From positions 1 through 47,349 of IMG/VR virus record IMGVR_UViG_3300046004_000662: a stretch of DNA of 47,349 nucleotides; one strand, given 5' to 3'. Numbering within the stretch: the first letter of the stretch is position 1; each line of letters begins with the position of its first letter. Both the position numbers and the translations under genes were made by a program. Source of the stretch: a virus. A model generated the notes under the pieces. That model saw nothing but the letters and a program-made list of their open reading frames with translations. It was not told the origin of the DNA and ran no database searches. Below, piece after piece: positions 6-47,346 of this stretch.

Positions 6-115
6 TTGGGTGAGCGTTCTTGAGTGGAATGTCATGAGGGCATCTCCAATGGGTTTCAGTGGTGGCCCGCTGGTTATAGTTTAGGGGCACGCTTTTCCGG
101 GCTTATGGGCGTAAG
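6..115. repeat. Left copy of 110-bp terminal direct repeat
   Basis: Bases 6-115 are identical to 47237-47346. The five bases before this copy and the three bases after the right copy do not match the other side. The repeat spans the first 30 or so bases of the RNA polymerase gene (start codon complement at 33-35, so only an N-terminal stub is present here) and its leader. It may be overlap from a circular or permuted assembly, or a short terminal redundancy; the ragged ends favour assembly overlap. The distance between copies gives a unit of 47231 bp. Confidence 0.95.
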
Positions 116-132
116 CCGTTGATTGTGTTCAG

Positions 133-156
133 GAAAAAGGGTGGCTGCTGCTACCC
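133..156 (-). terminator. Rho-independent terminator between integrase and RNA polymerase
   Basis: Read on the minus strand, GGGTAGC, loop AGCA, GCCACCC is followed by TTTTTCC. The stem is 7 bp with one mismatched or wobble position, and the U-tract is clear. It lies downstream of the integrase stop (252) and upstream of RNA polymerase, on the polymerase side of the attP core. In the circular form it should stop early-operon transcripts. In a prophage it would sit between host DNA and the polymerase gene. Confidence 0.7.
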
Positions 157-217
157 AATGGCTATGGGACATGTTGTGTCACGGCGTCTGCCCCTCCTAC
201 TGAGTGTCACTTGCTAT

Positions 218-247
218 CATATAGGCCGCATTCCCTAGACATGGCAA
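218..247 (-). promoter_or_regulatory. Possible sigma70-like promoter facing left
   Basis: On the minus strand TTGCCA (242-247) and TATATG (218-223) are separated by 18 bases. A start near 211 would run into the terminator at 133-156, giving a transcript of roughly 75-80 nt. The match to consensus is fair and there is no other support. Confidence 0.25.
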
Positions 248-251
248 CGCG

Positions 252-1403
252 TTACGAACCCCACCAGTCCTCGACTGCAAATCCTTGTACGGGGGTTCGA
301 TTCCCTCCGAGGCCTCCACTATCCTGTTGTTCTACCTCACCATTTTGGTTGTCATGATTTATATCAATAGTAGCTACAGAGGCGAATTGCCCCGCAAGAT
401 TGCCCCCCGATTGCCCCGCAGAGAGACCAGCCAAAACCTGAGCTTCCACAAGGCTTTCGTCCTCGACATGGGCATACTTGAGGGTCGTTCGGATGTTCCT
501 ATGCCCCAGCATCTTCTGGACTGTGACGGTTGGCACCTTGGCCTTGGTCATACGGGTGGCGGTCGTGTGCCTAAGACTGTGGATCGTGATTGAAGGGTCG
601 ATCCCTGAGCCTTTGCGGGCCTGTAGGAAGGCAGAATAGAATTTCCGGTACGAGGGTAGCCCAGAATGAATTAGTGCCCTCAGTGGCTCTCCTAGGGCTT
701 CCTGAAGGGGTACCCTATGGGCTTGCCCGCTCTTGGTGACACCTAGGGTTATCCAGACAACGCCCGATAGAGGAGGCGATATGTCTGCCAGCCTTAGGCG
801 TAGCAAATTTGACACACGCATTCCGGTTTGCACCAAGACCGTGACCATAAGCGCATAGTCGGTGAGGCCCTTGGAGACCATGTGATCAATCAGCTTCCTC
901 TCGTCGTCCTCTCTGAGAAACGCGATGGCAGGCTCTTGCTCGACTTGCCACGGTAGGTCGATCGCCGTGTCACGATAGCCACGCTTAAGGCTGAATTTGA
1001 GGAGCTTTGACACTGAGGCGAGGTAGCGGTTGATGGTCTTGTGGCTAAGGCGCTTGGCCTTGAGCTTGTCCACCATGTGATCGACATGATGCGGCCCGAT
1101 CTCAGCGATGGGTACGGTAGCGCCCAGAAGGCCCACAGATGCCTCCAGACGGGCAAGTGACTGATGTTCGTCCTTGGTACCCTTCCATAGCGTTCTTGCC
1201 TCTAGTGAGGCTGCTAGGGTCGTTAGCGATGGCTTGGCTTCCTGAGCCTTAGGGACGAATGTCCCAGACGACAACATGGCTTCGATTTGGCGAGCCTGCT
1301 TCATGGTCGTGACGCGCCGCCTTAGGCGTTCGCCATGCTTGACCACCTCAACCACAAACAGGCCCGTAGGTTTACCCTGTCGCTTCTCTGCATAGATGCT
1401 CAT
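252..1403 (-). CDS. int: Tyrosine recombinase (phage integrase)
   Basis: This 383-aa protein is expected to recombine the phage attP with a host tRNA-Cys gene. An N-terminal arm-binding type region (about 1-50, basic, beta-rich) is followed by a SAM-like core-binding domain (about 60-150) and a catalytic domain. The catalytic set is complete: R196 in TGMRVSNLLRL, K224, H275 and R278 in HSLRH, H301 in LGHRNIRTTLKYAH, and nucleophile Y310. The last 20 or so codons run through the attP core, so the C-terminal tail (GGLGGNRTPVQGFAV) is encoded by tRNA-derived DNA and would change on integration. The start overlaps the upstream gene by 4 bp (ATGA), implying coupled translation. Confidence 0.95.
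   Translation of the reverse strand: MSIYAEKRQGKPTGLFVVEVVKHGERLRRRVTTMKQARQIEAMLSSGTFVPKAQEAKPSLTTLAASLEARTLWKGTKDEHQSLARLEASVGLLGATVPIAEIGPHHVDHMVDKLKAKRLSHKTINRYLASVSKLLKFSLKRGYRDTAIDLPWQVEQEPAIAFLREDDERKLIDHMVSKGLTDYALMVTVLVQTGMRVSNLLRLRLADISPPLSGVVWITLGVTKSGQAHRVPLQEALGEPLRALIHSGLPSYRKFYSAFLQARKGSGIDPSITIHSLRHTTATRMTKAKVPTVTVQKMLGHRNIRTTLKYAHVEDESLVEAQVLAGLSAGQSGGNLAGQFASVATIDINHDNQNGEVEQQDSGGLGGNRTPVQGFAVEDWWGS
273..318 (+). other. attP: attP core: 3' half of tRNA-Cys(GCA)
   Basis: The plus strand fits a tRNA 3' half exactly: two bases of anticodon stem (273-274), 7-base loop with GCA anticodon (275-281), stem 3' side (282-286), 4-base variable loop GTAC, T-stem GGGGG/CCCTC around TTCGATT (291-307), acceptor 3' strand CGAGGCC (308-314), discriminator T and CCA (315-318). 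GCA with U73 identifies cysteine. The 5' half is missing, so this is not a tRNA gene. The preceding base (272) breaks the stem, marking the left limit. The expected host acceptor 5' strand is GGCCTCG. It lies inside the integrase 3' end, as expected for a tRNA-targeting attP. Confidence 0.88.
386..420. repeat. Three direct repeats near attP (possible arm sites)
   Basis: ATTGCCCCGCA occurs at 386-396 and 410-420, with ATTGCCCCCCG at 399-409 between them. They lie about 70-100 bp from the core, within the integrase 3' coding region. They encode a low-complexity AGQ/GGN/AGQ stretch beyond the catalytic tyrosine. The spacing suits integrase arm-type sites, but the repeat could equally reflect the peptide. 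Confidence 0.35.
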
Positions 1404-1732
1404 AGGGCAATGTCTCCGGTGTTACAGATAGCAGCCATGATGGCTTCGTTGCCGTCCACCTTGTCGTTCCATGAATAGTCCGACAGAACGTCTGGACCGT
1501 TGCCGTGGATGAATGTCACGCTACCAATGCGCTCCGTACCGTTACGCAAGACATACACGGTTTCGTCAGTGGCTGCTGTCTCAGCCTGAATAGCTGCCTT
1601 GTCGGTGCTTCGAACAATGGGGTACTCCTCGCCATCATACACGCTAATGACTAGGCCACGCGCAAGCGCCCTGTCGATAACCCCATCGATGATCTTGGCT
1701 TCCACAAGGTTCATGTAGTCGGGATATGCCAT
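1400..1732 (-). CDS. Uncharacterised early protein
   Basis: I do not recognise this 110-aa protein. The start at 1732 (MAYPDYMNL) is chosen because AGGAGG lies just upstream on the minus strand; a longer reading to 1795 would overlap a separate membrane ORF. The protein is mildly acidic, has no membrane segment, and may be a small alpha/beta fold. It overlaps the integrase start by 4 bp, and its own start overlaps the stop of the upstream small membrane ORF (TAATG), so three genes appear translationally coupled. Confidence 0.7.
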   Translation of the reverse strand: MAYPDYMNLVEAKIIDGVIDRALARGLVISVYDGEEYPIVRSTDKAAIQAETAATDETVYVLRNGTERIGSVTFIHGNGPDVLSDYSWNDKVDGNEAIMAAICNTGDIAL

Positions 1733-1869
1733 TAGATTAGTCCTCCTATTACGAGATACAGAAATAGCCCCCAGACAGGTAAGCCTAGGAGCCATGTGAA
1801 CATGTTGCTATCAGTAGTGTGGGCTATGATTGCACATGCCATTATGTATAGGAATATAACTAGTAAGAT
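1732..1869 (-). CDS. Small two-helix membrane protein, start uncertain
   Basis: An open frame on the minus strand ends in a TAA (1732-1734) that overlaps the next gene's ATG. It encodes two hydrophobic stretches separated by a short polar turn (HTTDSN). The only in-frame ATG (codon at 1842) would cut off most of the first helix. An AAGGAG sits six bases before an ATC codon at 1869, so either a rare start is used or the ATG at 1842 is the start. Overlapping stop/start and clear membrane pattern support a real gene; the function is unknown. Confidence 0.45.
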   Translation of the reverse strand: MLLVIFLYIMACAIIAHTTDSNMFTWLLGLPVWGLFLYLVIGGLI

Positions 1870-1892: not shown

Positions 1893-3110
1893 TCAGTTGG
1901 TAGCTGGCGCATATATGAAGGCCAGAATGTCTTCGCTGGTTATGCCGTAGTCCTGCATCAACATAGCTACAGCGTCAGGATGTTGGCTGGCAAGGTCTAT
2001 CATATAGTCAAGGTCGCGCTCCTTGGCTTTAGCTGTTCCTTTGGCGGCGGTGTCTTTGCCGAATGGCTTGGTATCGTCATGGATGCCTAGCGCCGACGAC
2101 ACTTCGCTAAAGGTCGCATCGTGAATATCGTAGTCATCATCTGCCGTGAAATCATAGGAGCTATATGGGCTTGACCGGCCCGTGCTGTCATATGTCCTAC
2201 GCCCGCTATAGCCCGACATGCCGGGCTGGTAGTAGCGATTGGACCACACTCCGTAATTGTCATATTCAGTCGTGCCAGCTATGCGCTCGCATACCAGCGT
2301 TGCGTGATCTAGGTCGCAGATGGTTTCGAGTAGGTCCAGTGCAAAGCCTATGTCTTGGGTCTCACTGGAACGATGCTGATTGTAGTAACCCACACTGATA
2401 TTGGTACACTCTGCGATCAGATCGGTATAGTTCGCAGTGTCAGTGAAGGTACCGCCATCATCACGTTGCCAATGCTTTGCGCCTAGCTGGTCTATGAGAC
2501 TATCAGCAAACGCATTGCTACAGCATCGTGAGCCTTGATGAGTGATCACGCTTGTCGTGCCATACCGATCAAAGGCTATGGCATAGTTGATGCCTGCTAG
2601 TAGCTCGGGCGTCTCTTTCGCGATGTGGCTTGAGCCTATCCCGCCGACTTCCTCCATACGATGGAACACATACAGGCCCGGTATGCCGCGTGCGATCATA
2701 TTGACCATCAACCACACACCCGTCGTGCAATCCGCCCCAAGGCAATCGGAAGCGGGAGCCTTAGCGATATCATTCACGATGGTTAGTGATTGCCTGCCAC
2801 CATGGCGATGGACCGTATCGGTATGACTGGACCATAGGACGGGAGAGGCCGTGCCATCGGCGCAAGGGATTGCCTTTATGAGATTGCCGATAGCGTCCTG
2901 ATAGACCCCTAGCGGGCGGATGAAGCGGTTGATGAACTTGCGTTCAGACTTTGAGCCTGCCGGTCGCTTGTATTGGAGCATGTCCAATAGCTGGAGCTTG
3001 GGAGAGTGTGAAGGCTTGGTTTCTATAGGCATAGCGATTGCTGGCGCTCCGATAGGGCTAGGACGGCAGGGCGAGGGAATGTGGTAGGTAGATAGGTCTT
3101 TGGTCATCAT
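1893..3110 (-). CDS. Di-zinc metallopeptidase, M20/M28/M42-like
   Basis: This 405-aa protein has every metal-ligand motif of a co-catalytic zinc exopeptidase, in order: H96-T-D98 (SSHTDTV), bridging D127 (LGAD), catalytic E153 and ligand E154 (HRMEEVGGIGSSH), D181 (AFDRYG) and H246 (YYNQH). Such enzymes remove amino acids from peptides or cleave other amide bonds; the substrate here is unknown. Residues about 280-350 are Tyr/Ser/Asp-rich and probably disordered. It overlaps the 490-aa gene upstream (ATGATGA), so the two are coupled and may act together. The start is one of two adjacent ATGs. Peptidases of this type are uncommon in phage early operons. Confidence 0.8.
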   Translation of the reverse strand: MMTKDLSTYHIPSPCRPSPIGAPAIAMPIETKPSHSPKLQLLDMLQYKRPAGSKSERKFINRFIRPLGVYQDAIGNLIKAIPCADGTASPVLWSSHTDTVHRHGGRQSLTIVNDIAKAPASDCLGADCTTGVWLMVNMIARGIPGLYVFHRMEEVGGIGSSHIAKETPELLAGINYAIAFDRYGTTSVITHQGSRCCSNAFADSLIDQLGAKHWQRDDGGTFTDTANYTDLIAECTNISVGYYNQHRSSETQDIGFALDLLETICDLDHATLVCERIAGTTEYDNYGVWSNRYYQPGMSGYSGRRTYDSTGRSSPYSSYDFTADDDYDIHDATFSEVSSALGIHDDTKPFGKDTAAKGTAKAKERDLDYMIDLASQHPDAVAMLMQDYGITSEDILAFIYAPATN

Positions 3111-4579
3111 GCTGCCTCCTCGGCCATCTGAGCGGCTTCAATGGTGGCATCGCTGTCAGGATCGACATAATCGGGCGCAAGTGTCGCGTCCTCATACCAA
3201 TCACCCGACACCGTGCAATGGTGGAAATCGTCCGCGTTGTCAGTCACGTACATGGTCGAATAGGTCTGATCAGTGTCAGCCATGGTGATAGGCTGCGAGC
3301 CTACGCTACGGTAGCCGTATCGAACCGGGACAACATGCTCCTGCATTCCCTCGCAGAAATAGCCGCCATTATCGTCAAACCATGACTGCGAATAGGTGCG
3401 ACCGCGATTGTCAGTGATCATGTCAGTACGGCGCGTGCTGTAGCAACTTCCATCACCGTCACAACGGAACGCTTGATCGCCATCGATTTGGTCTTGGTGT
3501 ACGTAGATCGTCAGGTCTTCAAGGTAGACCATTTCGTCTTCATCATAGTAGCCATCAGACCACTCGCAGTACATTTGGCCGGCATGGTCATCCATGACTC
3601 CGCTTGTGCTAGATGCGTCCATGTGTCCGCCAATCGTAAACCATTCGTCATCATGATCTGAGACAGAACAGCAACCATCAATGTACGGCATGATGTAGCC
3701 ATCACCATTTTGGTTTTCGATCTTACGGATGCGAGCGCCTTTCAGGTTGCCGGGCTTGTAGCCTGCTTTCTCTAGAGCGCGTTCAATGCGACCATCGGCT
3801 CCGCCATACACGCGCCCATAAAGTTTCTTGTCCGGCCACACAAGGCAACGGTCCGTCACACGGCCGCTACGCTTCAGATAGGCAAGCTGGAGATCGCTGT
3901 CGCCATAGACTGCGACCGGGTGAAGGTGTCCCAAATAGTCGCGCTTGGGATGGGACATGCACGATGATGGACCGTTAAGGTATGCCTCCACGATTTCATC
4001 GGGTGTCTTAGCGAACATCAATTCAAGGTCCGCTTCAATGATAGCCGCAAGGCGGCGCACCTCATCGGGCGACATATCAGGATAGAATTTGGTCAGGTAT
4101 CGTCCTGCCCGCATCGTGACCTGAATGTCCACCATTCCCTTAGCATCGTCGGGAGTGAAGGCAATCTGTGCACTGTCAGTGTAGGACACATGGGCATAGT
4201 GGTCCGCGATCTTAGGCAAGTGAGCCCATGCTGACGGCAGGCTGACATAAAGGCCGTCTAGCAGTCGGGAGGCTTCACGCTCACGCCATGCCGTATCCTT
4301 AAGGATAGTATAGCGGTGAGTTTTCCCTTTGTTGCACCAATATCCATTCGGGCCGAAATACAGCTCATTTGCCCGCTGGACAGCTTCGCGATTAGTTGCG
4401 CTGTCAACAGTCTGGACGATGCGCAATTCGTGCGTGTAGCTAGGCGAGCCATCCGAATAGTAGGACTGCAAAGTCAGGTAACGCTGGTCACCGATGCCGG
4501 GAACCTTCATTTGTTCCCACATGCCGGTTTCAGAGTTGAGCGTTTCGATGACAAGCTTGCGCGGAAGAGAGGTTGCCAT
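3107..4579 (-). CDS. Large uncharacterised early protein
   Basis: I cannot assign this 490-aa protein to a named family. Residues about 210-310 contain a motif-rich block (HPVAVYGDSDLQLAYL, RCLVWPDKKLYGRVYGG, GARIRKI, MPYIDG). The C-terminal third is acidic and contains scattered Cys and His that could bind metal. An AAGGAAA ribosome site precedes the ATG. It is the longest gene of the early cluster and overlaps the metallopeptidase gene, suggesting a two-gene unit. Host take-over or a ligase/peptidase type modification are possibilities only. Confidence 0.7.
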   Translation of the reverse strand: MATSLPRKLVIETLNSETGMWEQMKVPGIGDQRYLTLQSYYSDGSPSYTHELRIVQTVDSATNREAVQRANELYFGPNGYWCNKGKTHRYTILKDTAWREREASRLLDGLYVSLPSAWAHLPKIADHYAHVSYTDSAQIAFTPDDAKGMVDIQVTMRAGRYLTKFYPDMSPDEVRRLAAIIEADLELMFAKTPDEIVEAYLNGPSSCMSHPKRDYLGHLHPVAVYGDSDLQLAYLKRSGRVTDRCLVWPDKKLYGRVYGGADGRIERALEKAGYKPGNLKGARIRKIENQNGDGYIMPYIDGCCSVSDHDDEWFTIGGHMDASSTSGVMDDHAGQMYCEWSDGYYDEDEMVYLEDLTIYVHQDQIDGDQAFRCDGDGSCYSTRRTDMITDNRGRTYSQSWFDDNGGYFCEGMQEHVVPVRYGYRSVGSQPITMADTDQTYSTMYVTDNADDFHHCTVSGDWYEDATLAPDYVDPDSDATIEAAQMAEEAA

Positions 4580-5190: not shown

Positions 5191-5700
5191 AGCGTTTCGC
5201 TCCTTTAGGGCATCATCAGTTGAGGCACACACCTCAAGACGCTTGTTGTGAGCTACCGGGAGACTAAATCGTCGCTTTGAACGCTAGGGCATCACACCGT
5301 TAGCTGATGCTACCATCGGGCTAATTCGGAGGAGCGTCATCTAGACTGCCATCAAGCGGCATCGTCTTTCGCCTTGTCGGTTGCACTAACCGGGCGGCTC
5401 ACTACTGGTCTGGCGACGTGCTCCCCTCATTCGCACAATGAGGACACGCGGGCCGCGCTAGTGGCACACAGGGCCACCTAGCTTGTGTCCTTCCCGGCAT
5501 CAGAGGCACGGGTTATATACCGCCGCTTGTGCGAAGAAGGAGACCAGTGCAGCGTTAGCCCAAATGAGGGGCTGTATGACAGGCCCGAAAGCCCGCTTTG
5601 TTCATCCCCACTGCAAGGGGAGCCGTTCGGTTCATGTGACGCGGTGACTGTGTGGACCGAACGAAACCAAATCACCTACAACCACATTAGACGGTTTGCC
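5191..5700. other. Gene-free, GC-richer, hairpin-dense leader
   Basis: I see no convincing gene. Local structures include TGAGG/CCTCA (5220-5235), CTCATT/AATGAG (about 5427-5443), AGCCC/GGGCT around a 7-base loop (5557-5573), TCCCC/GGGGA (5605-5621), and a perfect 8-bp inverted repeat CGTTCGGT/ACCGAACG (5624-5631 with 5656-5663). If leftward transcription starts near 5740, this would be a 550-nt structured 5' leader of the early genes, or it may hold a non-coding RNA. Short open frames on both strands here lack ribosome sites. Confidence 0.5.
5624..5663. repeat. Inverted repeat, 8-bp perfect arms
   Basis: CGTTCGGT (5624-5631) and ACCGAACG (5656-5663) flank a 24-bp spacer. It could be an RNA stem-loop in the early leader or a protein-binding site. 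The same CGTTCG/CGAACG arms recur in the tighter palindrome at 6035-6049. Confidence 0.5.
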
Positions 5701-5742
5701 ACTAGATAGCAAGCGGCATGTAATGGCTGATAATAATCAAGG

Positions 5743-5753
5743 ATTATATAGCA
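5743..5753 (-). promoter_or_regulatory. Candidate early promoter -10 element, leftward
   Basis: The minus strand reads TTTGCTATATAATCC, containing a perfect TATAAT (plus 5743-5748) and a TG just upstream, as in an extended -10. The -35 position at normal spacing (CAATTA) is weak. It would drive the leftward early genes through the hairpin-dense leader. This is the best host-type promoter I can see for them. Confidence 0.35.
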
Positions 5754-5859
5754 AACGCATAGGAATAATTGAGCCATAACTAGGAAGCATAACGAGACAT
5801 TCCGCTGCAATATCAATGGGTTACGCAATAAAGCTCAGATTTGGTATGAGACTATGAGA

Positions 5860-5871
5860 TAACCTAACGAT
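5860..5871 (+). repeat. TAAC(C/G)TAACGAT motif, copy 1
   Basis: The 12-mer TAACCTAACGAT is here and at 6737-6748, and as TAACGTAACGAT at 8282-8293. The last two copies lie 40 and 18 bp before the starts of plus-strand virion genes (6788, 8311). This copy is followed by ATATCAATGAGTTAC. It could be a promoter or binding-site element. Confidence 0.4.
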
Positions 5872-5908
5872 ATCAATGAGTTACCGCAGTGCACAATCTA
5901 TTTGAACT

Positions 5909-5934
5909 CTCATATACGCAAAATGCAATATGAG
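5909..5934. repeat. Inverted repeat CTCATAT/ATATGAG
   Basis: Perfect 7-bp arms (5909-5915 and 5928-5934) are separated by 12 bp, giving arm centres about two helical turns apart, as for a dimeric DNA-binding protein. No matching regulator gene is identified. Confidence 0.4.
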
Positions 5935-6034
5935 CGCTGGCGGCAAAGTCCATAGTGGCAGCTACAGGGATAGCTCACTTGGAAACCTGCCGTTCTAGGG
6001 CCATCCTAGGGCCAGCAATCGCTATTCTATATAA

Positions 6035-6049
6035 CGAACGATCCGTTCG
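6035..6049. repeat. Compact palindrome CGAACG-ATC-CGTTCG
   Basis: Perfect 6-bp arms with a 3-bp centre lie directly downstream of an AT-rich CTATATAA. This arrangement is typical of an operator beside a -10 element. The arms match those of the larger inverted repeat at 5624-5663. Confidence 0.45.
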
Positions 6050-6424
6050 ACATATCGATTACATCAGGGTTACGCATGGTTGCGGCCCGATAACGGACGG
6101 CCTAGTAAACAAGTGTTGCCTCATTAAACAAAAGTTTACAAGTGACCTAGGCCAAAATGATGCAGTATCATAATACCTCACCCGATTGTCACCGTTGCGC
6201 ATCGGGACGTAATCCACATGTCACCGTGCGACACCGCATGATTACACAACGAATGCACACGCTGGCATATGTCGGGCAATGTCGTGGCGTGATACGTACC
6301 GATAACACACGCTACATCTGTAGTACTAGGATAGCATATCCTCTACCACTGTAGATAGATCAACAGGTTAGCAGGCATGAGGGCAGATCGTGCGGGGAAA
6401 ACGATGATGGGTCCTGCCCTAGTC

Positions 6425-6456
6425 TTGACATTGGTCAAGGACGAAGTGCCACTTCG
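6425..6456. repeat. Two adjacent palindromes
   Basis: TTGAC-ATTG-GTCAA (6425-6438) is followed after three bases by CGAAGTG-C-CACTTCG (6442-6456), a perfect 7-bp-arm palindrome. The first contains TTGACA. The pair looks like a regulatory site cluster upstream of the rightward arm. The second could also form a hairpin, but no U-tract follows. Confidence 0.45.
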
Positions 6457-6514
6457 CAAAAGTTGTTAAAGCCTGCGGCTTGTTGTTCGTTCTGGTTGAG
6501 CAGTGAAAATCTGT

Positions 6515-6540
6515 GGGGGAGGGCGGGGGGTACCGGGGGG
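6515..6540 (+). other. G-quadruplex motif
   Basis: Four G-runs (5, 3, 6 and 6 bases) are joined by loops of 1, 1 and 4 bases, satisfying the usual G3+N1-7 rule. It sits about 250 bp upstream of the first virion gene. More G-runs follow at about 6588-6600. It could affect transcription or replication from this region. Confidence 0.6.
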
Positions 6541-6736
6541 CTACCTCAAGGTACCGGTTATAGGACACGGGTCCTACCTACAGGCCCGGCGGGGGCGGGG
6601 TCTGGTTTTGACAGGCCTCAAAGCACTATTCCTTAGTAATATCAATGACTTAGACCAATATAGTGCAATAAGTGTTCCCCTATAAGGAAGCAGGCTCCTA
6701 GATGAGCCCTATAATCATCGTGATGTTACTTATTGC

Positions 6737-6748
6737 TAACCTAACGAT
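6737..6748 (+). repeat. TAAC(C/G)TAACGAT motif, copy 2
   Basis: TAACCTAACGAT lies 40 bp upstream of the first virion gene start. It matches the copy at 5860 exactly and the copy at 8282 with one change. Confidence 0.4.
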
Positions 6749-6787
6749 TCCACAAGCAGCACTAGCTGCGCTAGACAGGATTGCACT

Positions 6788-32891: not shown

Positions 32892-33090
32892 CGAACGCTT
32901 GGCCGTTCTAGAGACAAAACTGGATTTAACAATCCAAGAGTTGGATAAGACGGTAACCAAGATCAATACGTTGCATGACGTCTACATGCAGGCCAAGGGG
33001 GCCAACTATTTCATGCATGTGTTGACGGCTATGGCTGCTTTCCTTGCCGCGAAGTTCAGCTACTTGCTCTTCAGTACGCCTATCAAATAG
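32872..33090 (+). CDS. XhlA/holin-like small membrane protein
   Basis: The 72-aa protein starts at GTG 32872, behind a GGGGA; TTG at 32839 is an alternative. A coiled-coil first half (SERLAVLETKLDLTIQELDK) is followed by one C-terminal membrane helix (FMHVLTAMAAFLAAKFSYLLF). This layout resembles haemolysin XhlA-type lysis accessories. It closes the rightward arm, just before the bidirectional terminator. Confidence 0.55.
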   Translation: MGGEPISERLAVLETKLDLTIQELDKTVTKINTLHDVYMQAKGANYFMHVLTAMAAFLAAKFSYLLFSTPIK

Positions 33091-33092
33091 CA

Positions 33093-33143
33093 AAAAACCG
33101 ATACCGAACGCTCTCGTTGTGAGAACATACGGTATCGGTTTTT
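33093..33143. terminator. Bidirectional terminator between arms
   Basis: AAAAACCGATACCG (33093-33106) pairs perfectly with CGGTATCGGTTTTT (33130-33143). The A-tract and T-tract make it a terminator in both directions. It separates the converging rightward lysis genes (stop 33090) from the leftward replication genes (stop 33150). Confidence 0.9.
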
Positions 33144-33149
33144 ACGTCT

Positions 33150-35165
33150 TTACTTTATCGGGCAGGCACCAGTGGCGCAGTCGTCATCGAGGATTTCATC
33201 GAAGCTGTTGACTAGGCTTACCGGCTTGAGTGTCGAGGCATAGGCCTCAAAGACCTCACGACTCACGACTTCCTGAGGCAGATAGGGATAGCCCAAGTCC
33301 TCAGCGGTCTTAGTCGGGTCAGCCCTGAAGAGGAATGAGACACCCACGTAGTGGTCCCAGTTACCGTAAATCCAATCCACGATATCGGGAACCTCAGCCG
33401 GGTCATAGCTGACCGTGATGGAGGCGTTGTGAGTAACGTAGTTCTCCATGTAGAACTTGTAACGGTTCAACTGGTCTACGGCTGACTCAAGGTTGACTTC
33501 CTTGCCGTCTACGTCGGAGAACCCCAGATCGCCCCAATCAACAGGGAAGCGAACAAGTACGGCATCAGGATTATAAGGGTCAGCAAAAGTATAATAGCCG
33601 CTGTCAGATAGGAGACCAAGCAGAGGGTCTGTAGCAGCAAATCGGACATTGTTGAAGATATACCTTCCGAGTGGCTTATGGATGCCCTCGGTGGTATCCA
33701 TGATCTTCGACAGGGTACCGGAAGGCTTGATGGTGGTGACACACTTGGACCTAGGCATGATGACTTCATCCGCCATGATGTAGGTGGCCCTCTGTGCTAC
33801 TCCCCTGAGGGTGCGGAGCTTCTGATAATCATCGTGGTGTTCCCACCTGACGATACCCGTCAATCCAACACCAGTGAGGCGTAGGAACTCATTAAGCTCA
33901 TGCCATGACCTCTGAAGGATACCATCGTCAAGGTTGACGCATGTCTGCCTATAGTTCGCACGGGCAACAAGCTCAGTGGCTCGGATGAGTCCGTCCCAGT
34001 CGCCATTGAACTTAGCAAGGTCGATCTCTACGAGGTTACAGAAGGACTTGTTGGCGAGGAGGATCTCAGCGCAGGGGTTGACACCCTTGAACCATGGAGC
34101 GCGGAGAAGAGCAGCCTGACCATTAATGAAGCCGGGCTCACTGCCTCCTGACTCGACCATAAGTGAGAAGATGTCAGTGAGTTCAGACTTGGAAGGTCGA
34201 TGGTAGAATACGAGGGAGTTGTTGGACTGGGAACGCTGGGGGTTGTCAATCCAATGATCCTTCTTGGCCTTGGCGAACTCGACCCACTCAGGGTCACCGT
34301 AAGGTACCACTGCGATCTCTGCTGACCGCCTAGAGCTAAGGGTGGTGCCCAGATGGTTCATGATATCGAGGATGTCGATACGACTCAGCAGCCTCGAAGC
34401 CTTCTTGTTCAGGACAATACAAATCTGCTCAAAGGCCTTGCTGATGGTCTCATCACCAGAGCTAATCCAGCCATAGCCCTTTAGTCGGACCCCAGCAGGA
34501 CGAATCTCTGAGAAGTCCAAGGTCAGTTTCTCGCAGTGCCTCTTGTTAGCCAGAAGCTTCCCTGCGGCCTTGGCCCATGCCTCAGCACTGTCGCCTACCT
34601 TTAGTACCCAGTGGTACCCGTAGTTGTCTTCGGTGTTGCGGAACTGGTGGAACTGCTCGACGTTGTGCTCGTAGCCCTTATCAGCAATGTCGGTCTTGGT
34701 GGATCGAATGATCTCTACTTCTGTGGGTCGTGAGAAACCTGAGAGAGTCCCAACAACCGGTTCAAAACCGACACCGCATCCCTGTAATAGAAGCCAGAAG
34801 CTATCAACAATGTCGTGGACTGTTTCAACTCGGAGGAAGGAACAGTTGAACATAGAGGCTTCGCGAGATTGTCCAACAGCCGTTCCACCAAGCCACAGAG
34901 TACGGCCTGCCGGGAGAGCCTTTCGTGCGAGGAACAGTTCTCGAAGCTCATGAAGCTCGGCCTCATGCCGGGGTCGCCACTTCTTGTTTCCAAGGGCCCG
35001 CTTCCAGAGCCACTCTTGGTGTCCGATGACTCGATCAACAGTCTGCTCCCAAGTCTCAAAGACCTTACCTTGGTCATCCAACGGCCTCGAATAAGTCCTC
35101 CTCGTTATAATTTCAGCCCTAGGGCTAGGAGTGTAACTGCTTGAGTTCGGAAAGTTCTCGGACAT
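33150..35165 (-). CDS. Adenosylcobalamin-dependent ribonucleotide reductase (class II)
   Basis: The 671-aa enzyme reduces ribonucleotides to deoxyribonucleotides. Active-site residues are C365 and E367 in VNPCAEILL, C376 in SFCNL, C108 in MFNCSF, and the C-terminal thiol pair C663/C668 in CATGACPIK. No iron-binding subunit gene is present, and the sequence follows the monomeric B12-dependent type. The start at 35165 (MSENFPNSSS) is chosen because the 240 bases of open frame further upstream lie inside the LAGLIDADG gene in another frame. It depends on host or environmental B12. Confidence 0.9.
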   Translation of the reverse strand: MSENFPNSSSYTPSPRAEIITRRTYSRPLDDQGKVFETWEQTVDRVIGHQEWLWKRALGNKKWRPRHEAELHELRELFLARKALPAGRTLWLGGTAVGQSREASMFNCSFLRVETVHDIVDSFWLLLQGCGVGFEPVVGTLSGFSRPTEVEIIRSTKTDIADKGYEHNVEQFHQFRNTEDNYGYHWVLKVGDSAEAWAKAAGKLLANKRHCEKLTLDFSEIRPAGVRLKGYGWISSGDETISKAFEQICIVLNKKASRLLSRIDILDIMNHLGTTLSSRRSAEIAVVPYGDPEWVEFAKAKKDHWIDNPQRSQSNNSLVFYHRPSKSELTDIFSLMVESGGSEPGFINGQAALLRAPWFKGVNPCAEILLANKSFCNLVEIDLAKFNGDWDGLIRATELVARANYRQTCVNLDDGILQRSWHELNEFLRLTGVGLTGIVRWEHHDDYQKLRTLRGVAQRATYIMADEVIMPRSKCVTTIKPSGTLSKIMDTTEGIHKPLGRYIFNNVRFAATDPLLGLLSDSGYYTFADPYNPDAVLVRFPVDWGDLGFSDVDGKEVNLESAVDQLNRYKFYMENYVTHNASITVSYDPAEVPDIVDWIYGNWDHYVGVSFLFRADPTKTAEDLGYPYLPQEVVSREVFEAYASTLKPVSLVNSFDEILDDDCATGACPIK

Positions 35166-35517
35166 ATAGCTCTCTTTCGGGGTTTCTAAACATCCCCCGT
35201 CTATTTGGAAGTCTAATGGGGCGGCAGTCTTTTCTGTAGGTAACCAGAAGTTCCGCCTGAGGTCGCTTCTCTCGTAGGTATGGAAGAAGCAATTCCGTTG
35301 CGGATAAGGCGTTGTCTCCGTAAACGGCCCACAGATATTGGGGCTTATTGATACGCTGCTTTCGTGCGGCAACAGACCCACCCAAAAGTCCCTGTAGAAA
35401 CTCAAGGGTAGGTCTGTGGGTATTGACTACACGAATAGCCACCGCGCCGTTGCTCTCAATCCGAAAGCAACCTTCACCGTCAATAAACCCCGCGGCATAA
35501 GCGAGGTCAGCGTTCAT
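35125..35517 (-). CDS. LAGLIDADG homing endonuclease
   Basis: The 130-aa protein contains a single LAGLIDADG motif at the N-terminus (LAYAAGFIDGEGCFRI) with the catalytic acid, followed by the typical beta-beta-alpha core (YLWAVYGDNALSATELLLPYLREKRPQAELL). One motif implies a homodimer. It starts directly after the MazG-like stop (TGAATG) and overlaps the reductase start by 41 bp, so it sits between two metabolic genes without breaking either. Confidence 0.88.
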   Translation of the reverse strand: MNADLAYAAGFIDGEGCFRIESNGAVAIRVVNTHRPTLEFLQGLLGGSVAARKQRINKPQYLWAVYGDNALSATELLLPYLREKRPQAELLVTYRKDCRPIRLPNRRGMFRNPERELYVRELSELKQLHS

Positions 35518-35976
35518 TCAAATAAGGTCAATCAAATCGGGCGGCATGTAGTTCGGGCCCTTGAGTATCTTGCCGTCCTCCCGCCGTATCGGCTTACCAT
35601 CCCGATCAAGCTTGCTCATGTTGGAAGCATGAACCCTAGCGAAGGCCTCATTGAAGACATCCAGCGGAATGATGGAGGCAATGTTGTTGATCTGCCCGAG
35701 AACCTTAGCCATCTCAGGGTCAACCTCACGAACACCTACGAGGTAGGCACCCGTGGAGACATACTCCAGATCGATGAGTTCCTTGAGGAGCTGGGCCATA
35801 GCCTCACGAACCTCCTGAAGCTCCTCAGCCATGAGCTTCTTCCACAGCTCAGGGTCTTCGCTGGCCTGAAAGGCAGACATGAACTCACGGACCATGTTGC
35901 CGCGATCCACCGTCTCCTTGTCCTCAAACGGGAGGGTCATCTGGTCATCATCAAGATCAATAATTTCGTTGGTCAT
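35518..35976 (-). CDS. MazG/PRA-PH-like nucleotide pyrophosphohydrolase
   Basis: The 152-aa all-helical protein has EELQEVREAM, then ELIDLEYVSTGAYLVG, and the end motif FNEAFARVHASNMSKL followed by DGKPIRREDGKILKGPNY. These mark the PRA-PH/MazG superfamily, with metal-binding Glu/Asp residues. It probably hydrolyses NTPs or alarmone-type nucleotides during infection. Start overlaps the upstream stop. Confidence 0.8.
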   Translation of the reverse strand: MTNEIIDLDDDQMTLPFEDKETVDRGNMVREFMSAFQASEDPELWKKLMAEELQEVREAMAQLLKELIDLEYVSTGAYLVGVREVDPEMAKVLGQINNIASIIPLDVFNEAFARVHASNMSKLDRDGKPIRREDGKILKGPNYMPPDLIDLI

Positions 35977-36266
35977 TAGCCTATTCCATAGTTGCGAAGA
36001 ACAGTGAGGGTCTGACTTACCGACAACCCAGCGAGTACCTCTGCTTGGTTAAGTCCATCAGCATAGTTGGTGTAGTCACCATCATCATTCAGTGCGATCA
36101 CAAAGATGCCCCTGATGCGGCTACCGTTGGCGAGGTCCTTCATTTCCTCCTCGTTGGGAAGGGATGGGGTGTACTCCTCCTCTTCGGGAAGGTATTCGTC
36201 GGGGTGTATTCGGTTCCCAAACAGAGGAACCACTTTGAAATCAGTTGGTACAGTATCGTCAGTCAT
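35976..36266 (-). CDS. Uncharacterised protein
   Basis: This 96-aa acidic protein has a disordered N-terminal half (DEYLPEEEEYTPSLPNEEE) and a compact C-terminal half (IRGIFVIALNDDGDYTNYADG, then QAEVLAGLSVSQTLTVL). I know no function. It is coupled on both sides by TAATG overlaps. Confidence 0.65.
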   Translation of the reverse strand: MTDDTVPTDFKVVPLFGNRIHPDEYLPEEEEYTPSLPNEEEMKDLANGSRIRGIFVIALNDDGDYTNYADGLNQAEVLAGLSVSQTLTVLRNYGIG

Positions 36267-36571
36267 TAATCAGCGGGTCCACAATCGAGGGCTCTAGCAA
36301 AGGCAGTCATGAGGTCGTAGGTTTGACCTAGGGTCAACGTAATGACATCCGCCGTGGTGCCATTATCCTGCCGGATACAAACCTTGTAGGCATTTTCCCA
36401 CCACACTTCGACGGGGGGGTTTCGCTTCGGAGCAGTAGCAAGGTCTACGACTGTCCAGTAGTAGCCATGCTTGTCGTGCTCTTCATGGATGCTCTCAGCT
36501 ACGATCTTTCGACTTGGCTGACGACCGGGCGAGTTCCCTTTCCGCGAAGAAGATGATTTTCTTGAGGTCAT
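36266..36571 (-). CDS. Uncharacterised protein
   Basis: The 101-aa protein has a basic Ser/Arg/Lys-rich N-terminus (residues 1-25) lying over the end of the upstream gene in another frame, then a small folded part (YYWTVVDLATAPKRNPPVEVWWEN). The basic tail may only reflect the overlap; no internal Met offers a better start. Function unknown. Confidence 0.6.
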   Translation of the reverse strand: MTSRKSSSSRKGNSPGRQPSRKIVAESIHEEHDKHGYYWTVVDLATAPKRNPPVEVWWENAYKVCIRQDNGTTADVITLTLGQTYDLMTAFARALDCGPAD

Positions 36572-36845
36572 AGCTCAGATCATTTCCTGCTTTCTCTCCT
36601 AGGCGGTACGCGGCCTTGAAGATATTTCCTACGTTGAAATTCATCTGCTTGTGTTCGATGAGGTCTAAAAGCTCTTTGGCCCCATCGGGAAGCTTGTAAT
36701 AGTCAGTCGAGCCGCCATCGGATGCTATCTTGGTGTCTCTGATTGTAATCACGGCAGACTTGTTGAGGCACCATCCTTGAGCCTGATGAATGTTGCAGGG
36801 GTGGTCTACGACTTTGTGACAATAGATGCAGAGGGTGGGCTCCAC
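36495..36845 (-). CDS. DUF3310-type protein (T7 gp1.7-like)
   Basis: The 116-aa protein has an N-terminal zinc-binding-like cluster (CIYCHKVVDHPCNIH, then CLNKS). It continues with the DUF3310 pattern DYYKLPDGAKELLDLIEHKQ, then NFNVGNIFKAAYRLGEK and a helix ending in ERELAR. T7 gp1.7 of this family is linked to nucleotide phosphorylation. The start is GTG at 36845 with AAGGAG eight bases upstream, inside the exonuclease gene (40-bp overlap). The Cys cluster is an addition to the usual domain. Confidence 0.7.
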   Translation of the reverse strand: MEPTLCIYCHKVVDHPCNIHQAQGWCLNKSAVITIRDTKIASDGGSTDYYKLPDGAKELLDLIEHKQMNFNVGNIFKAAYRLGEKAGNDLSYDLKKIIFFAERELARSSAKSKDRS

Positions 36846-37567
36846 AGGATGGGCTCCTTCTTTTCACTGTTCCAATCAGAGGCCCTCAGGATGCGAGCCA
36901 GCCGTGCTTGCAGCAGAGCGTCGTCCTCAGTCAGGCCAGCCTTCTCAAAGGCCTCTACGACGCCCTCCCAGCCCCGCTGGACGTACTTCTCAGCCTTGAC
37001 AGCCCCGATACCGGGACAACCGGGATAGCCGTCTGTGGGGTCTCCTGAGAGCGTCTGTCTGAGCCAGTTCTGATCGGCTTCATGCTCTTCAATGGTGTGC
37101 AGGGTTTCCTGTCGCCACAGAAGGCCGGGTATGGTCAGAAGGTCTTTGTCCTCAGAGACGATGATCGGGTTCTCAACGCGACCTTGAGTAGCCATGATGC
37201 CCATCAGGTCGTCAGCCTCTAGGCAGTCAACCCGCCCAGCGGAGAGTTCACTGAAGACCCTCTGGATGACAGTCCAATAGCACAGAGGCTTACGGGAACG
37301 GCCAGCCTTGTAGCCGTCATACATTGCAGAGCGGAACAGGGCATTGCCCGTAAAGCAGAAGAACAACTTGAACTCGGGGGAGCCGCCCAACCACTCACTA
37401 ATGAAGTGCTGCTTGGTCTGCGCAATGCGAGTGAAGATCATCCAGACCTCCTCCGCATTAGAAGCCAACACATGGTTGTCAGCGTCCCACCGAGTCTCAT
37501 GCTCTGCTGCTGCTGCTGCCGTGTACATCAAGTGGTCGGCATCAAATAGCAGAGTGTATGTTTTCAT
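36806..37567 (-). CDS. 5'-3' exonuclease (T7 gp6-like)
   Basis: The 253-aa FEN-type nuclease removes RNA primers and degrades DNA ends. Metal-binding acids appear in LLFDADHLMYTA, LEADDLMGIMA and IVSEDKDLL, followed by the helix-hairpin-helix motif GDPTDGYPGCPGIGAVKAEKY. The start at 37567 (MKTYTLLFDADHL) overlaps the stop of an upstream tiny membrane ORF (ATGA), which explains why a longer open frame to 37636 should not be used. Confidence 0.88.
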   Translation of the reverse strand: MKTYTLLFDADHLMYTAAAAAEHETRWDADNHVLASNAEEVWMIFTRIAQTKQHFISEWLGGSPEFKLFFCFTGNALFRSAMYDGYKAGRSRKPLCYWTVIQRVFSELSAGRVDCLEADDLMGIMATQGRVENPIIVSEDKDLLTIPGLLWRQETLHTIEEHEADQNWLRQTLSGDPTDGYPGCPGIGAVKAEKYVQRGWEGVVEAFEKAGLTEDDALLQARLARILRASDWNSEKKEPILWSPPSASIVTKS

Positions 37568-37653
37568 CCGAAAATAAGCCTTATAGTTTCTAGGATGGCT
37601 CCTACCGTGAACATGATATAGCCAATCCAGAACCATCCACGAAAACTAGGCAT
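37564..37653 (-). CDS. Tiny membrane protein between glutaredoxin and exonuclease
   Basis: A 29-residue ORF (MPSFRGWFWIGYIMFTVGAI...) forms one strong membrane helix. Its ATG overlaps the end of the glutaredoxin gene by 8 bp and its TGA overlaps the exonuclease ATG. The tight coupling on both sides argues for a translated gene. Function unknown. Confidence 0.55.
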   Translation of the reverse strand: MPSFRGWFWIGYIMFTVGAILETIRLIFG

Positions 37654-37873
37654 GATCTGTGCCGAGATAGCGACGAAGCTCTTCATAGCCACCTACCCTG
37701 AGACCCTTATGGTAAACCTGAGGCACCAAGGTAATACCCTGATCACGCAAGAAGTTCTTCAAGATAGGGGACTGGCTCACATCATAGACTGATACCTGAC
37801 AGTCGCGGCTAGCCAACAGAGCCAGAGCCATGGAGCAGTAGTTACAGTTAGGCTGAGAGAGCATGACCCACAT
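37646..37873 (-). CDS. Glutaredoxin
   Basis: The 75-aa thioredoxin-fold protein has active site C10-N-Y-C13 (LSQPNCNYCSMAL), cis-Pro segment TLVPQVY and the GGYEEL glutathione-side motif. It can reduce the ribonucleotide reductase encoded further along the same operon. The start at 37873 is chosen by fold; upstream in-frame residues overlap the previous gene. Confidence 0.82.
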   Translation of the reverse strand: MWVMLSQPNCNYCSMALALLASRDCQVSVYDVSQSPILKNFLRDQGITLVPQVYHKGLRVGGYEELRRYLGTDHA

Positions 37874-37883
37874 GGTGGGCCAA

Positions 37884-38123
37884 TCAGTTCGCGGCAGTGG
37901 TGTCATCGACGGGGATGACGGTATCTCCACCGGAGGAGTCAACGATGGGCTCGACTGCAACAGGTACGGGGACCACGGGTGCGGGCCCTTCCACCACGGG
38001 GGTGGCAGCGTTGTTGAAGAGGTCATTCAGTCGGCCCTCGACATAGTTGATAGAAGGATTGCTGAAGCCGTAGTTCTGGCAGAACAGGACGATCTCAGTG
38101 GCAATGGCGCGGAAGTCAGTCAT
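37884..38123 (-). CDS. Uncharacterised protein with Pro/Val-rich tail
   Basis: The 79-aa protein starts at 38123 (MTDFRAIATEIV), overlapping the upstream stop (TAATG). A helical N-terminal half is followed by a disordered Ala/Pro/Val/Asp tail (NAATPVVEGPAPVVPVPVAV). Function unknown. Confidence 0.6.
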   Translation of the reverse strand: MTDFRAIATEIVLFCQNYGFSNPSINYVEGRLNDLFNNAATPVVEGPAPVVPVPVAVEPIVDSSGGDTVIPVDDTTAAN

Positions 38124-38332
38124 TACACGGGGTCTCCAATGTTGAGGGGCACGCACTTGTATGCGGCAAAGATGGGAACGTCTTGGGGTCCCTGAGCCGA
38201 AGCAATCAGGGAGTGATAGACACGCTGGTTGTCAGCTTCGCAGGCCTCCATGCTTGGATAAGCGCGGGCCTCACTTGTCGTTATTGGGCCGGACAGGGAC
38301 AGTACGACCATAGCCATCATCACGTAGAGCAT
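38123..38332 (-). CDS. Small secreted protein
   Basis: The 69-aa protein has a signal peptide (MLYVMMAMVVLSLSG...SEARA) and a mature part of about 45 residues with two Cys, which could form one disulphide in the periplasm. It overlaps the lipoprotein-like ORF upstream by 62 bp. Function unknown; superinfection exclusion or envelope effects are possible. Confidence 0.5.
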   Translation of the reverse strand: MLYVMMAMVVLSLSGPITTSEARAYPSMEACEADNQRVYHSLIASAQGPQDVPIFAAYKCVPLNIGDPV

Positions 38333-38519
38333 TATCTGGAATCCAGTCGTTGATGTTTGAAGCGTTAGGTGTCCGATGCTGTTGGCTGCACGACGGCAGT
38401 AACAAGAGCATCCCAGCTAACAGGAAATAGGGTAGCCATATAAGCAGAGATCTGTTTTGCAACCTGTTGGGTTTCCTTCTGTGTATGACTATCGAGACGG
38501 AGAACACAGACCCTTGCAA
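38271..38519 (-). CDS. Lipoprotein-like ORF overlapping thyX
   Basis: This 82-aa frame lies largely inside the 3' end of thyX in another frame. It encodes a hydrophobic segment (LLIWLPYFLLAGMLLLL) ending in a lipobox-like LPSC, then a polar tail of about 35 residues, the last part beyond the thyX stop. The true start is uncertain. Overlap by 155 bp lowers confidence, but the signal-lipobox-tail pattern is unlikely by chance. Confidence 0.4.
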   Translation of the reverse strand: MQGSVFSVSIVIHRRKPNRLQNRSLLIWLPYFLLAGMLLLLPSCSQQHRTPNASNINDWIPDNALRDDGYGRTVPVRPNNDK

Positions 38520-43036: not shown

Positions 43037-43047
43037 TTGCTATGCTA

Positions 43048-43356: not shown

Positions 43357-43357
43357 A

Positions 43358-44614: not shown

Positions 44615-44652
44615 GCGGTCTGTAGGTCCTATAGAGTAGCAATTGGTTTACA

Positions 44653-44862: not shown

Positions 44863-47266
44863 TTAGAACGTCCTTCAGATCAAGAGAGCCGTAAGTCGGC
44901 AATGTCGGGAGACGGTGCTTGTTAGTCGAGACTTGGGCAGTGGCTTCGGTGAGCATCTCAGCGAGAACGTCCTCACCATACAGGCTGACAAACTCTTCGC
45001 GAATGATGTCACGGAACTGAGAGGCATCGGTAGCATGGCAACCGAAGCTGTCATGCACTAGCGCCAGTGACATGCCTTCTGAGGTAGCCCTGAGGGCCAC
45101 CATGTGTAGGTGACAGGCATCCATCGAATGCACGAAGGAGGGAGCGACGGCATTAGCAGCACGGGCCTTGTCGATACCCTTGCCATCAACACGTAGTGAA
45201 GGCATGACCCGACGCTTTATGCCCCGGTCGTGGAGGAACAGAGAGATACGCTTAGTCTCATAGTTCGGATAATTGAGGACAACAGGGAACCCAAGGGGAG
45301 TAGTCCATACGAGGGGCTTCCCTTCGTGTGCCAATGTCCTCGCGATACCTTGGAGGAAACGCATTGCCTCTGCGGGTTTGGACACCACAGACTCAATCGT
45401 GTCGTAGATTATTGAGGCTAAGTACCTAGAAGCTGAGTAGCCATTGTCGGCCCCAAACGGGTGCTCTGGTAGGTCACCAGCCAGCACACGGTACTCAAGG
45501 GGCTTCATGGTGTCCTCAAGCTGCTGCTGGGCCATACCGAACTTCTTGGATGAATAGCTGTAGGTCATCACGTTGCGCTTAACGAGCGAACGGTTGACGC
45601 CAAAAGCTAGCGCACGTTCAGCCAAGAACCTCAGATCGGGATTGTCCAAGTCCTGCTCAACACGCTTTGCAGCTATGTCCGCGACTACCTGATAGACATC
45701 CTGAGGCTGTTCGGTATGACCTAGGTTGACGAGTAGACCCTCTTCGGCTCTGGTCATTGCACAGAGGTGTTGCAGTCCTGAGCATGAGCCATCGAATGAG
45801 ACGGGGAGATTGGAGGGGTAGTTCTCGGGTCCATCCCGATACAGCAAGGCGTTCCTAAGCTCCATGCAGGCAGCAAGGAACATGAACGGCTTGTCGGCCT
45901 TGAACCACCATGGGTCAGTGTTCAGTGGTCCACGCTCGAATGGGTAGTTTGCCACCTTGAGGATGTGGCTAATGTTGGTGTCTACCCAGACAATCCTAGA
46001 GGAAAAAGGTCGCTTAGAGACTTTTCCGAAGTCTCCACAGTTGGCGAGATGGACTTTGAGCCACTGTAGTCCATCGCGGCCAAGAGCTTTCCTGTCTGCG
46101 AAGAGAAACAGGCTGCGAACGTAGTCTTGTCGTTGGAAGTTAAACGAAGGTACACCATAGACCCGACCTCGGTAATCGAGATTGAGCACTGTCCAGAATG
46201 GATTGCTGCCAATATGCCTAGCCGTTTCAATGTCTCTCTCCAATGTCAGACGTTGGCCGATAAACGAGCGGTTAAGGTCCTTGGTGTCACTACGGCGCTT
46301 CATCCACACACGCCTGAGGTTCTGGTCCATGGTCTCCCACGGGACATCAGGCTCAGGTATCGGAATGTCCTTGGAGGGTGGCAGGCCTTCAATCACAAGA
46401 CCGGCCTTGTAGGCACCCTCGATCACATCAAGGATAGGTGCGTTAACGCAATAGGAGACGCTCTGAGCGGCATTGACCGCTTCCAGCACCCTACCTAGCT
46501 GACCTGTCTTGATTGCCCCTCTGAGGACGCTCTGTGTCATCTTATCGTGCGTCCTGACTAGTTGGACACGATAACCGTCCATGAGACGCACATCAGAGGT
46601 CCAGTCATCAGGCTTGGAGAGGCTAGGCAGCAACAGGGGCGCACGGTCCATCATCAGAGAGACCATCTTGTCTGACACCGAAAGGGCATCCTCAGTGATG
46701 GTAACGTACTGACCCTGAATGTCGCTCTCGACTAACACAAAGACAGAGCCATCAAGGACAGCACCAAGCAGCCATGAGCCTGCCTTGAAGCGTTCCTGAG
46801 TGGTCCACCCCTTGAGCTTGTATCCAGCCTTCTGAGCGATAGAGCGGAAAGCCTGCTTACGGTACTTAAGGCTACCATGGGTCTTTCGTACCTTGGCCTC
46901 AATACGAGAAGCCATCTTTCCATCGTGCTTCTGGAGACCAACGGAATATGCTTCGCTCTCTAGGGCATACCCTAAGAGCTTGATGGTCTTACTCAGAGGA
47001 TCACACTTAGCAATCGATGAGAGAGTAGTCTGCATTGCAACCAATGTTAGAACATAAGGATCAATATCAGTTAGAACATCCTCAAGCTCTTTCGTTATCT
47101 TAGAGTTATCTTTAAGTAACTTTAAGATAGCTTTATGTGTTTCATCAAAATACTTCTCAACGATAGCTAAAGCGCCATCAGTCGAGCCGAAGCCCATGTC
47201 ACGGGCTGTCCGTTCCATTCGCTTATCGTAACGCTCTTGGGTGAGCGTTCTTGAGTGGAATGTCAT
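44840..47266 (-). CDS. Single-subunit DNA-dependent RNA polymerase
   Basis: The 808-aa T7-type enzyme transcribes phage genes from phage promoters. Key parts are NLDYRGRVYG (about 362-371), motif A D492 in FDGSCSGLQH, motif B R559/K563/Y571 in RSLVKRNVMTYSYS and motif C H738-D739 in VHDSFGCHA. The promoter-binding N-terminus is shorter than in T7 (883 aa). GGAG lies nine bases before the ATG. In the circular genome it is the first gene left of attP and of the terminator at 133-156. Confidence 0.97.
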   Translation of the reverse strand: MTFHSRTLTQERYDKRMERTARDMGFGSTDGALAIVEKYFDETHKAILKLLKDNSKITKELEDVLTDIDPYVLTLVAMQTTLSSIAKCDPLSKTIKLLGYALESEAYSVGLQKHDGKMASRIEAKVRKTHGSLKYRKQAFRSIAQKAGYKLKGWTTQERFKAGSWLLGAVLDGSVFVLVESDIQGQYVTITEDALSVSDKMVSLMMDRAPLLLPSLSKPDDWTSDVRLMDGYRVQLVRTHDKMTQSVLRGAIKTGQLGRVLEAVNAAQSVSYCVNAPILDVIEGAYKAGLVIEGLPPSKDIPIPEPDVPWETMDQNLRRVWMKRRSDTKDLNRSFIGQRLTLERDIETARHIGSNPFWTVLNLDYRGRVYGVPSFNFQRQDYVRSLFLFADRKALGRDGLQWLKVHLANCGDFGKVSKRPFSSRIVWVDTNISHILKVANYPFERGPLNTDPWWFKADKPFMFLAACMELRNALLYRDGPENYPSNLPVSFDGSCSGLQHLCAMTRAEEGLLVNLGHTEQPQDVYQVVADIAAKRVEQDLDNPDLRFLAERALAFGVNRSLVKRNVMTYSYSSKKFGMAQQQLEDTMKPLEYRVLAGDLPEHPFGADNGYSASRYLASIIYDTIESVVSKPAEAMRFLQGIARTLAHEGKPLVWTTPLGFPVVLNYPNYETKRISLFLHDRGIKRRVMPSLRVDGKGIDKARAANAVAPSFVHSMDACHLHMVALRATSEGMSLALVHDSFGCHATDASQFRDIIREEFVSLYGEDVLAEMLTEATAQVSTNKHRLPTLPTYGSLDLKDVLNAEYAFA

Positions 47267-47346
47267 GAGGGCATCTCCAATGGGTTTCAGTGGTGGCCCG
47301 CTGGTTATAGTTTAGGGGCACGCTTTTCCGGGCTTATGGGCGTAAG
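47237..47346. repeat. Right copy of 110-bp terminal direct repeat
   Basis: It is identical to bases 6-115. It covers the first ten codons of RNA polymerase and the upstream leader. The final three bases of the window diverge from the left copy. Confidence 0.95.

Follow-up and report, generated by a model that had tools for sequence, protein, structure and literature searches.

Published models of temperate T7-like phages address how the phage RNA polymerase is first switched on and how it is kept off, and their answer combines a MarR-type repressor with read-through that leaks from the integrase operon. In the Pseudomonas phage LUZ100, a mapped terminator (T4) and a phage promoter (phi1) lie between integrase and polymerase, and leaky read-through into the polymerase has been proposed from long reads as the source of its first expression (PMC10134795). 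LUZ100 and the T7-like prophages discussed with it resemble the phage described here in having an integrase that precedes a T7-like RNA polymerase on one and the same strand, but LUZ100 has a MarR-type gene beside its integrase and phi1 before its polymerase; tRNA-Leu lies upstream of its integrase, and no stable lysogen was obtained (PMC10134795). The T7-like cyanophages P-SSP7 and S-TIP37 likewise have an integrase followed by an attP that matches part of a host tRNA gene exactly, and no recognised repressor, but they use tRNA-Leu of cyanobacterial hosts, in which integration was shown and lysogeny not found (PMC8776855). The vTRX32-1-like temperate Autographiviridae of Rhizobium share alphaproteobacterial hosts, a T7-like polymerase and integration at a tRNA gene, but differ in using tRNA-Leu and a 12-bp att motif (PMC8631192). 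Placement of the integrase upstream of a T7-like polymerase, a tRNA-derived attP after the integrase and the occurrence of such prophages in chromosomes are all already published. In the literature, with subscription titles covered only in part, we came across no remark, in PMC10134795 or elsewhere, that the polymerase is parted from the integrase operon on integration.

The DNA analysed here (the window; features in Table 1) is the 47,349-base virus contig IMGVR_UViG_3300046004_000662 from IMG/VR. An exact 110-bp repeat is common to both ends, with 5 nt on the left and 3 nt on the right lying unmatched outside it. Most simply, the repeat would close the DNA into a circle of 47,231 bases; the record carries no circular label in IMG/VR. 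The window represents a temperate-type podovirus in its unintegrated form, with an RNA polymerase like that of T7. Early and replication genes occupy the minus strand and structural genes the plus strand of the ORF map, from which the non-coding region between them is presumed to be the early promoter region. The genes of the replication half are of T7 type (single-subunit RNA polymerase, gp2.5-like SSB, endonuclease I, primase/helicase, DNA polymerase and exonuclease), and both the polymerase type (phrog_414) and its combination with T7-like replication genes are those of phages of the LUZ100/Pasto/HTVC019P kind. The portal belongs to phrog_1216, its nearest portals being of LUZ24/Bruynoghevirus type (~29%); the T7-type structural module by which the ICTV family Autographiviridae is recognised was not found, and the phage is not placed in that family. 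The genome is chimeric, with a LUZ24-like portal/structural half at 8311-32318 (+) and a T7-like replication/RNA polymerase half at 33150-47266 (-), a combination also seen in prophage G215. These convergent halves meet at 33090-33150 in a strong two-way terminator (ACCGATACCG...CGGTATCGGT, -19.6 and -27.5 kcal/mol, U5-U6).

Table 1. Features of the window around the integrase-att-polymerase junction and of the early region
Feature	Position	Strand	Remarks
Terminal repeat, left copy	6..115		Exact match to 47237-47346; contains polymerase start codon at 33-35
Marginal terminator-like hairpin, UUUUU tail at 138-134	139..156	-	
Tyrosine integrase, 383 aa	252..1403	-	PF00589 4.7e-29, phrog_1
attP core, 46 bp, 3' half of tRNA-Cys(GCA)	273..318	+	Identical in 94 genome stretches
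131-aa protein	1400..1795	-	Occupies the place of one or two MarR-type genes in relatives; unrelated to these
Peptidase-like early protein	1893..3110	-	phrog_4191; 46% identical to protein upstream of MarR-int in prophage G215
Early protein, function not recognised	3107..4579	-	34% identical to G215 counterpart
Non-coding divergent region (presumed early promoter region)	5233..6787		Between early/replication (-) and structural (+) genes; ORF map
Single-subunit (T7-like) RNA polymerase, 808 aa	44840..47266	-	PF00940 4.3e-95, phrog_414 3.5e-185
Terminal repeat, right copy	47237..47346		Exact match to 6-115

On the phage DNA, the early operon, integrase, att and polymerase follow one another head to tail on one strand. 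A preliminary description of this DNA had placed attP between the end of the integrase and the RNA polymerase gene, both on the minus strand, and its coordinates proved exact. The core matches tRNA-Cys(GCA) from the anticodon loop to CCA over 46/46 bp in 94 of 94 genome stretches, whose hosts are almost all Rhizobiales and mostly Beijerinckiaceae (e.g. Methylobacterium, Methylocystis and Rhodoblastus). Judged by this match, the att core can be taken with very high confidence to be part of tRNA-Cys, and the phage appears to target the tRNA-Cys of Rhizobiales, Beijerinckiaceae-like hosts, its own integration being predicted. The integrase retains the catalytic columns R, K, HxxR, H and Y, as in tyrosine-integrase prophages that integrate at tRNA genes, and its position upstream of the polymerase together with a tRNA-derived attP is again that of the LUZ100/Pasto/HTVC019P kind. 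Because the two ends of the window share the 110-bp repeat, the polymerase start codon is also present on the left, 237 nt from the core. Three ATTGCCCC direct repeats at 386..420 (+), 68-102 bp from the core, account for three of the four copies in the genome and are probable integrase arm sites.

The preliminary description had missed that the att core lies inside the integrase frame, of which the last ~22 codons traverse the core to reach a stop codon beyond it (252-254). The tRNA-Cys sequence recurs within the integrase frame in L098/L199, L156/L157, L159 and L160. Integration at tRNA-Cys is predicted to convert the end of the protein from ...GFAV-EDWWGS to ...GFAV-LCVxTPPRG..., commonly giving 388-430 aa depending on the host. 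An attP inside the integrase gene is also found in the Myxococcus phage Mx8, another kind of phage, in which the gene acquires a different 3' end on integration and this change alters the behaviour of the integrase (PMC6070905). The same tRNA-Cys 3' half adjoins a tyrosine integrase-like gene in phages or prophages without a T7-like polymerase (L097 84-127 and L099 222-265).

The gene order is shared by unintegrated relatives. A three-member polymerase alignment searched against viral contigs yielded 80 loci, while single polymerase or integrase protein queries against the same kind of contig gave no matches. In all 66 related contigs with both genes in reach, integrase and polymerase share a strand, the integrase being the upstream gene; the remaining 14 loci had too little upstream sequence and were left out of this count, though three of them have an integrase at the other contig end.

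Recombination at att had been expected to send the integrase and early genes to one end of the prophage and the polymerase to the other, and prophages with this terminal arrangement were indeed present in host genomes. In seven integrated relatives (G500, G791, G215, G056, G409, G773 and G544), integrase and polymerase face the host at opposite ends, ~39-46 kb apart or, in one deleted prophage, 10 kb apart. On the 2.55-Mb contig of G500, a 55-bp tRNA-Tyr repeat marks the ends: the complete tRNA stands at 182896 on the integrase side and the second copy, a tRNA-Tyr 3' half, at 228503, 271 nt from the polymerase start and 45.6 kb from the first. G791 has a 38-bp tRNA-Cys repeat, with the complete tRNA beside the polymerase and the copy beyond the integrase. 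G544 is the deleted prophage; a tRNA-Leu repeat bounds it, and the polymerase still marks one end and the integrase the other. G215 (IMG genome 2829814883) runs collinear with the window for most of its length (TerL-like protein and RNR each 70% identical), with its integrase at 134.6-135.7 kb, its polymerase at 177.1-179.6 kb and host genes beyond both; its candidate att repeat (14/15 bp) is not significant alone. G056, G409 and G773 have the same end arrangement and no repeat recognised by exact words of 11 or more, G409 being inserted in a sugar-kinase-like gene. An attL/attR pair was found in host genomes for G500, G544 and G791 and not for the window phage. The split is not universal, since integrase and polymerase are neighbours on the 74-kb contig of G346, and G535 is laid out differently. 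The integrase-attP-polymerase topology is thus confirmed as common in the group, and that integration splits integrase from polymerase can be held with high confidence for the group and is predicted for the window phage.

Several other observations were made on these prophages. The att of G791 is the 5' half of tRNA-Cys (L158 27-98, L236 2616-2653), and because the 5' side of the complete tRNA at the polymerase end points towards the phage, this phage may have to supply the tRNA promoter. The deletion in G544 has kept polymerase, primase/helicase, MarR and integrase between the tRNA-Leu repeats (L150; G544:C1 32750-42776). Lastly, GTTGGGAC repeats at the ends of G215 were considered as operators and set aside: two of them are its terminator arms and the others lie at both att ends, where they are as likely to be integrase arm sites as operators.

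The preliminary description had also proposed that a terminator between att and the polymerase guards the gene from host transcription. A hairpin does exist on the polymerase side, and strong ones occur there in some prophages, but it is marginal in the window and absent in most of the nearest tRNA-Cys relatives. On the minus strand, GGGU-A-GC pairs with GC-C-ACCC ahead of U5 (6 pairs with one A.C mismatch), at -8.1 kcal/mol in a 33-nt context (z -1.1) and -6.9 as a bare hairpin; the opposite strand folds better (-13.3) and has no U tract there, and a simple consensus terminator scan did not report the site. Since 17% of 240-nt one-strand segments of the window genome hold a T-tract hairpin at least as stable, this one is no better than chance and may be a chance occurrence. 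L159, L160 and L199, among the nearest tRNA-Cys relatives, have no forward terminator hairpin and L156/L157 have a weak one, while strong forward hairpins occupy the same place in prophages G215 (-18.4, U7), G056 (-15.3) and G791 (-12.6, tRNA-Cys) and in the unintegrated L118 (-20.9). Hairpins at -8 or lower across the 66 contigs point in the polymerase direction in 26 cases versus 41 in the opposite one, so that forward hairpins are not commoner. A guard terminator is therefore real in some members without being a fixed part of the design. The first gene downstream of the host tRNA-Cys points towards the site in 27 of 76 cases by a crude ORF/GC3 rule that was not compared with annotation, which could leave roughly one site in three open to host transcription.

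The further claim that excision re-arms the phage is not supported as formulated. Because the hairpin stands between att and polymerase in both the integrated and the excised state, it also separates early operon from polymerase after excision and cannot by itself re-arm the phage; excision alters only what lies upstream, replacing the host flank by the early operon, and re-arming would need read-through. A sigma-70 consensus scan gave no promoter between att and polymerase, alphaproteobacterial and phage promoters being outside that consensus, and the polymerase may still have a promoter of its own there, as LUZ100 does. No motif sought as a repeated phage promoter in the window exceeded three copies when 4 mismatches were allowed, and upstream of the polymerase there was neither a 14-mer common to most of the clade nor a shared operator-like motif.

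We propose that on incoming or excised DNA, read-through by host RNAP from the early/integrase operon would pass any hairpin and reach the polymerase, which, once made, would activate the remaining phage genes. Integration would cut this route and place the host flank upstream of the polymerase, and the prophage could not start the polymerase by read-through until excision rejoined the ends; in relatives, this loss of read-through would act alongside a MarR-type repressor. That read-through is lost on integration is likely. The locus as a whole is probably best explained as the integrase-attP-polymerase junction of a tRNA-Cys-targeting phage in which integration severs the polymerase from early-operon read-through, most likely in addition to repression or, in the window phage, without stable lysogeny.

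In the mycobacteriophages BPs and Brujita and in the int/sib system of lambda, the position of att makes integration itself change gene expression, att being placed within the repressor gene or beside a site that controls int; in the window phage it lies between integrase and RNA polymerase. Integration-dependent immunity of the BPs/Brujita type, with attP inside the repressor gene, does not describe this phage, in which attP is in the integrase gene. As the preliminary description had stated, no CI-like repressor is recognisable, PF01381 having no match in six frames of the window. A six-frame search for MarR gave no PF12802 match in the window, and a profile built from six MarR-type proteins of this phage group gave a best E of 1.9 versus 1e-13 and below in the controls (phages and prophages carrying MarR). 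A MarR-type regulator beside the integrase, as in the LUZ100/Pasto/HTVC019P kind, was therefore not recognised here, and the model of the 131-aa protein in its place is alpha/beta without winged-helix order, at low confidence (pLDDT 58). All seven integrated relatives have a MarR-type gene, six of them beside the integrase (two in G215; also G056, G409, G773, G544 and G791), while the best profile match in G500 is 9 kb from the integrase on the other strand. This lends no support to the idea that topology stands in for a repressor, and the seven offered no example of a prophage that topology alone keeps silent. No MarR was found in 33 of 66 related contigs with an integrase, some of them short upstream. 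The window also encodes a winged-helix HTH_39 protein at 43358-43699, whose structure model is of low confidence (pLDDT 50); it was rejected as a MarR substitute since L101 and G215 have both HTH_39 and MarR.

That the phage integrates yet is not lysogenic is quite possible, at somewhat under an even chance: integration would be transient within an essentially lytic cycle, and the position of att would have no regulatory role. S-TIP37 and P-SSP7 integrate at tRNA-Leu, and neither a repressor homologue nor stable lysogens were found in T7-like cyanophages (PMC8776855); by analogy such repressor-less cyanophages are the nearest precedent for the window phage; the missing CI and MarR matches, the unrelated gene next to the integrase and the related contigs in which no MarR was found point the same way. 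However, close relatives are stable enough in chromosomes to be sequenced, and an unrecognised regulator, e.g. the HTH_39 protein or a small early protein, could repress. Such a regulator is central to another, rather unlikely reading, in which lysogeny is repressor-controlled at a polymerase promoter near att, as proposed for MarR in LUZ100/Pasto-type phages, and topology is incidental. The published MarR model (PMC10134795), the MarR genes that accompany the integrase in the integrated relatives (in G500 only at a distance) and the retention of the HTH_39 protein in the window phage argue for it, against which HTH_39 coexists with MarR rather than replacing it and no common operator-like motif precedes the polymerase.

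A stronger role for topology seems improbable, namely that integration is itself part of the lysogeny switch, with read-through from the early/integrase operon as the sole start of the polymerase, so that joining the chromosome would disarm the phage and excision re-arm it even without a repressor. The complete scheme of the preliminary description, in which split and terminator together silence the prophage and excision re-arms it, is very doubtful. The split it invokes is real, strong att-polymerase terminators are present in G215, G056 and G791, and a terminator is mapped after the LUZ100 integrase, but the window hairpin is marginal, those of L156, L159, L160 and L199 are weak or missing, terminators in the forward direction do not outnumber those in reverse, a hairpin would block the route in the circle as well, and every integrated relative has MarR. 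Within the preferred explanation, that integration severs the polymerase from read-through, the split in the window phage, where no repressor was recognised, would more probably be a by-product or act as a weak brake than take over repression in full.

If the split alone did suffice, it would constitute a repressor-free lysogeny switch, which the present evidence falls short of showing. The anatomy common to this large group implies that the read-through route invoked by models of temperate T7-like phages would exist only on unintegrated DNA, and it predicts that the polymerase transcript differs between circle and lysogen.
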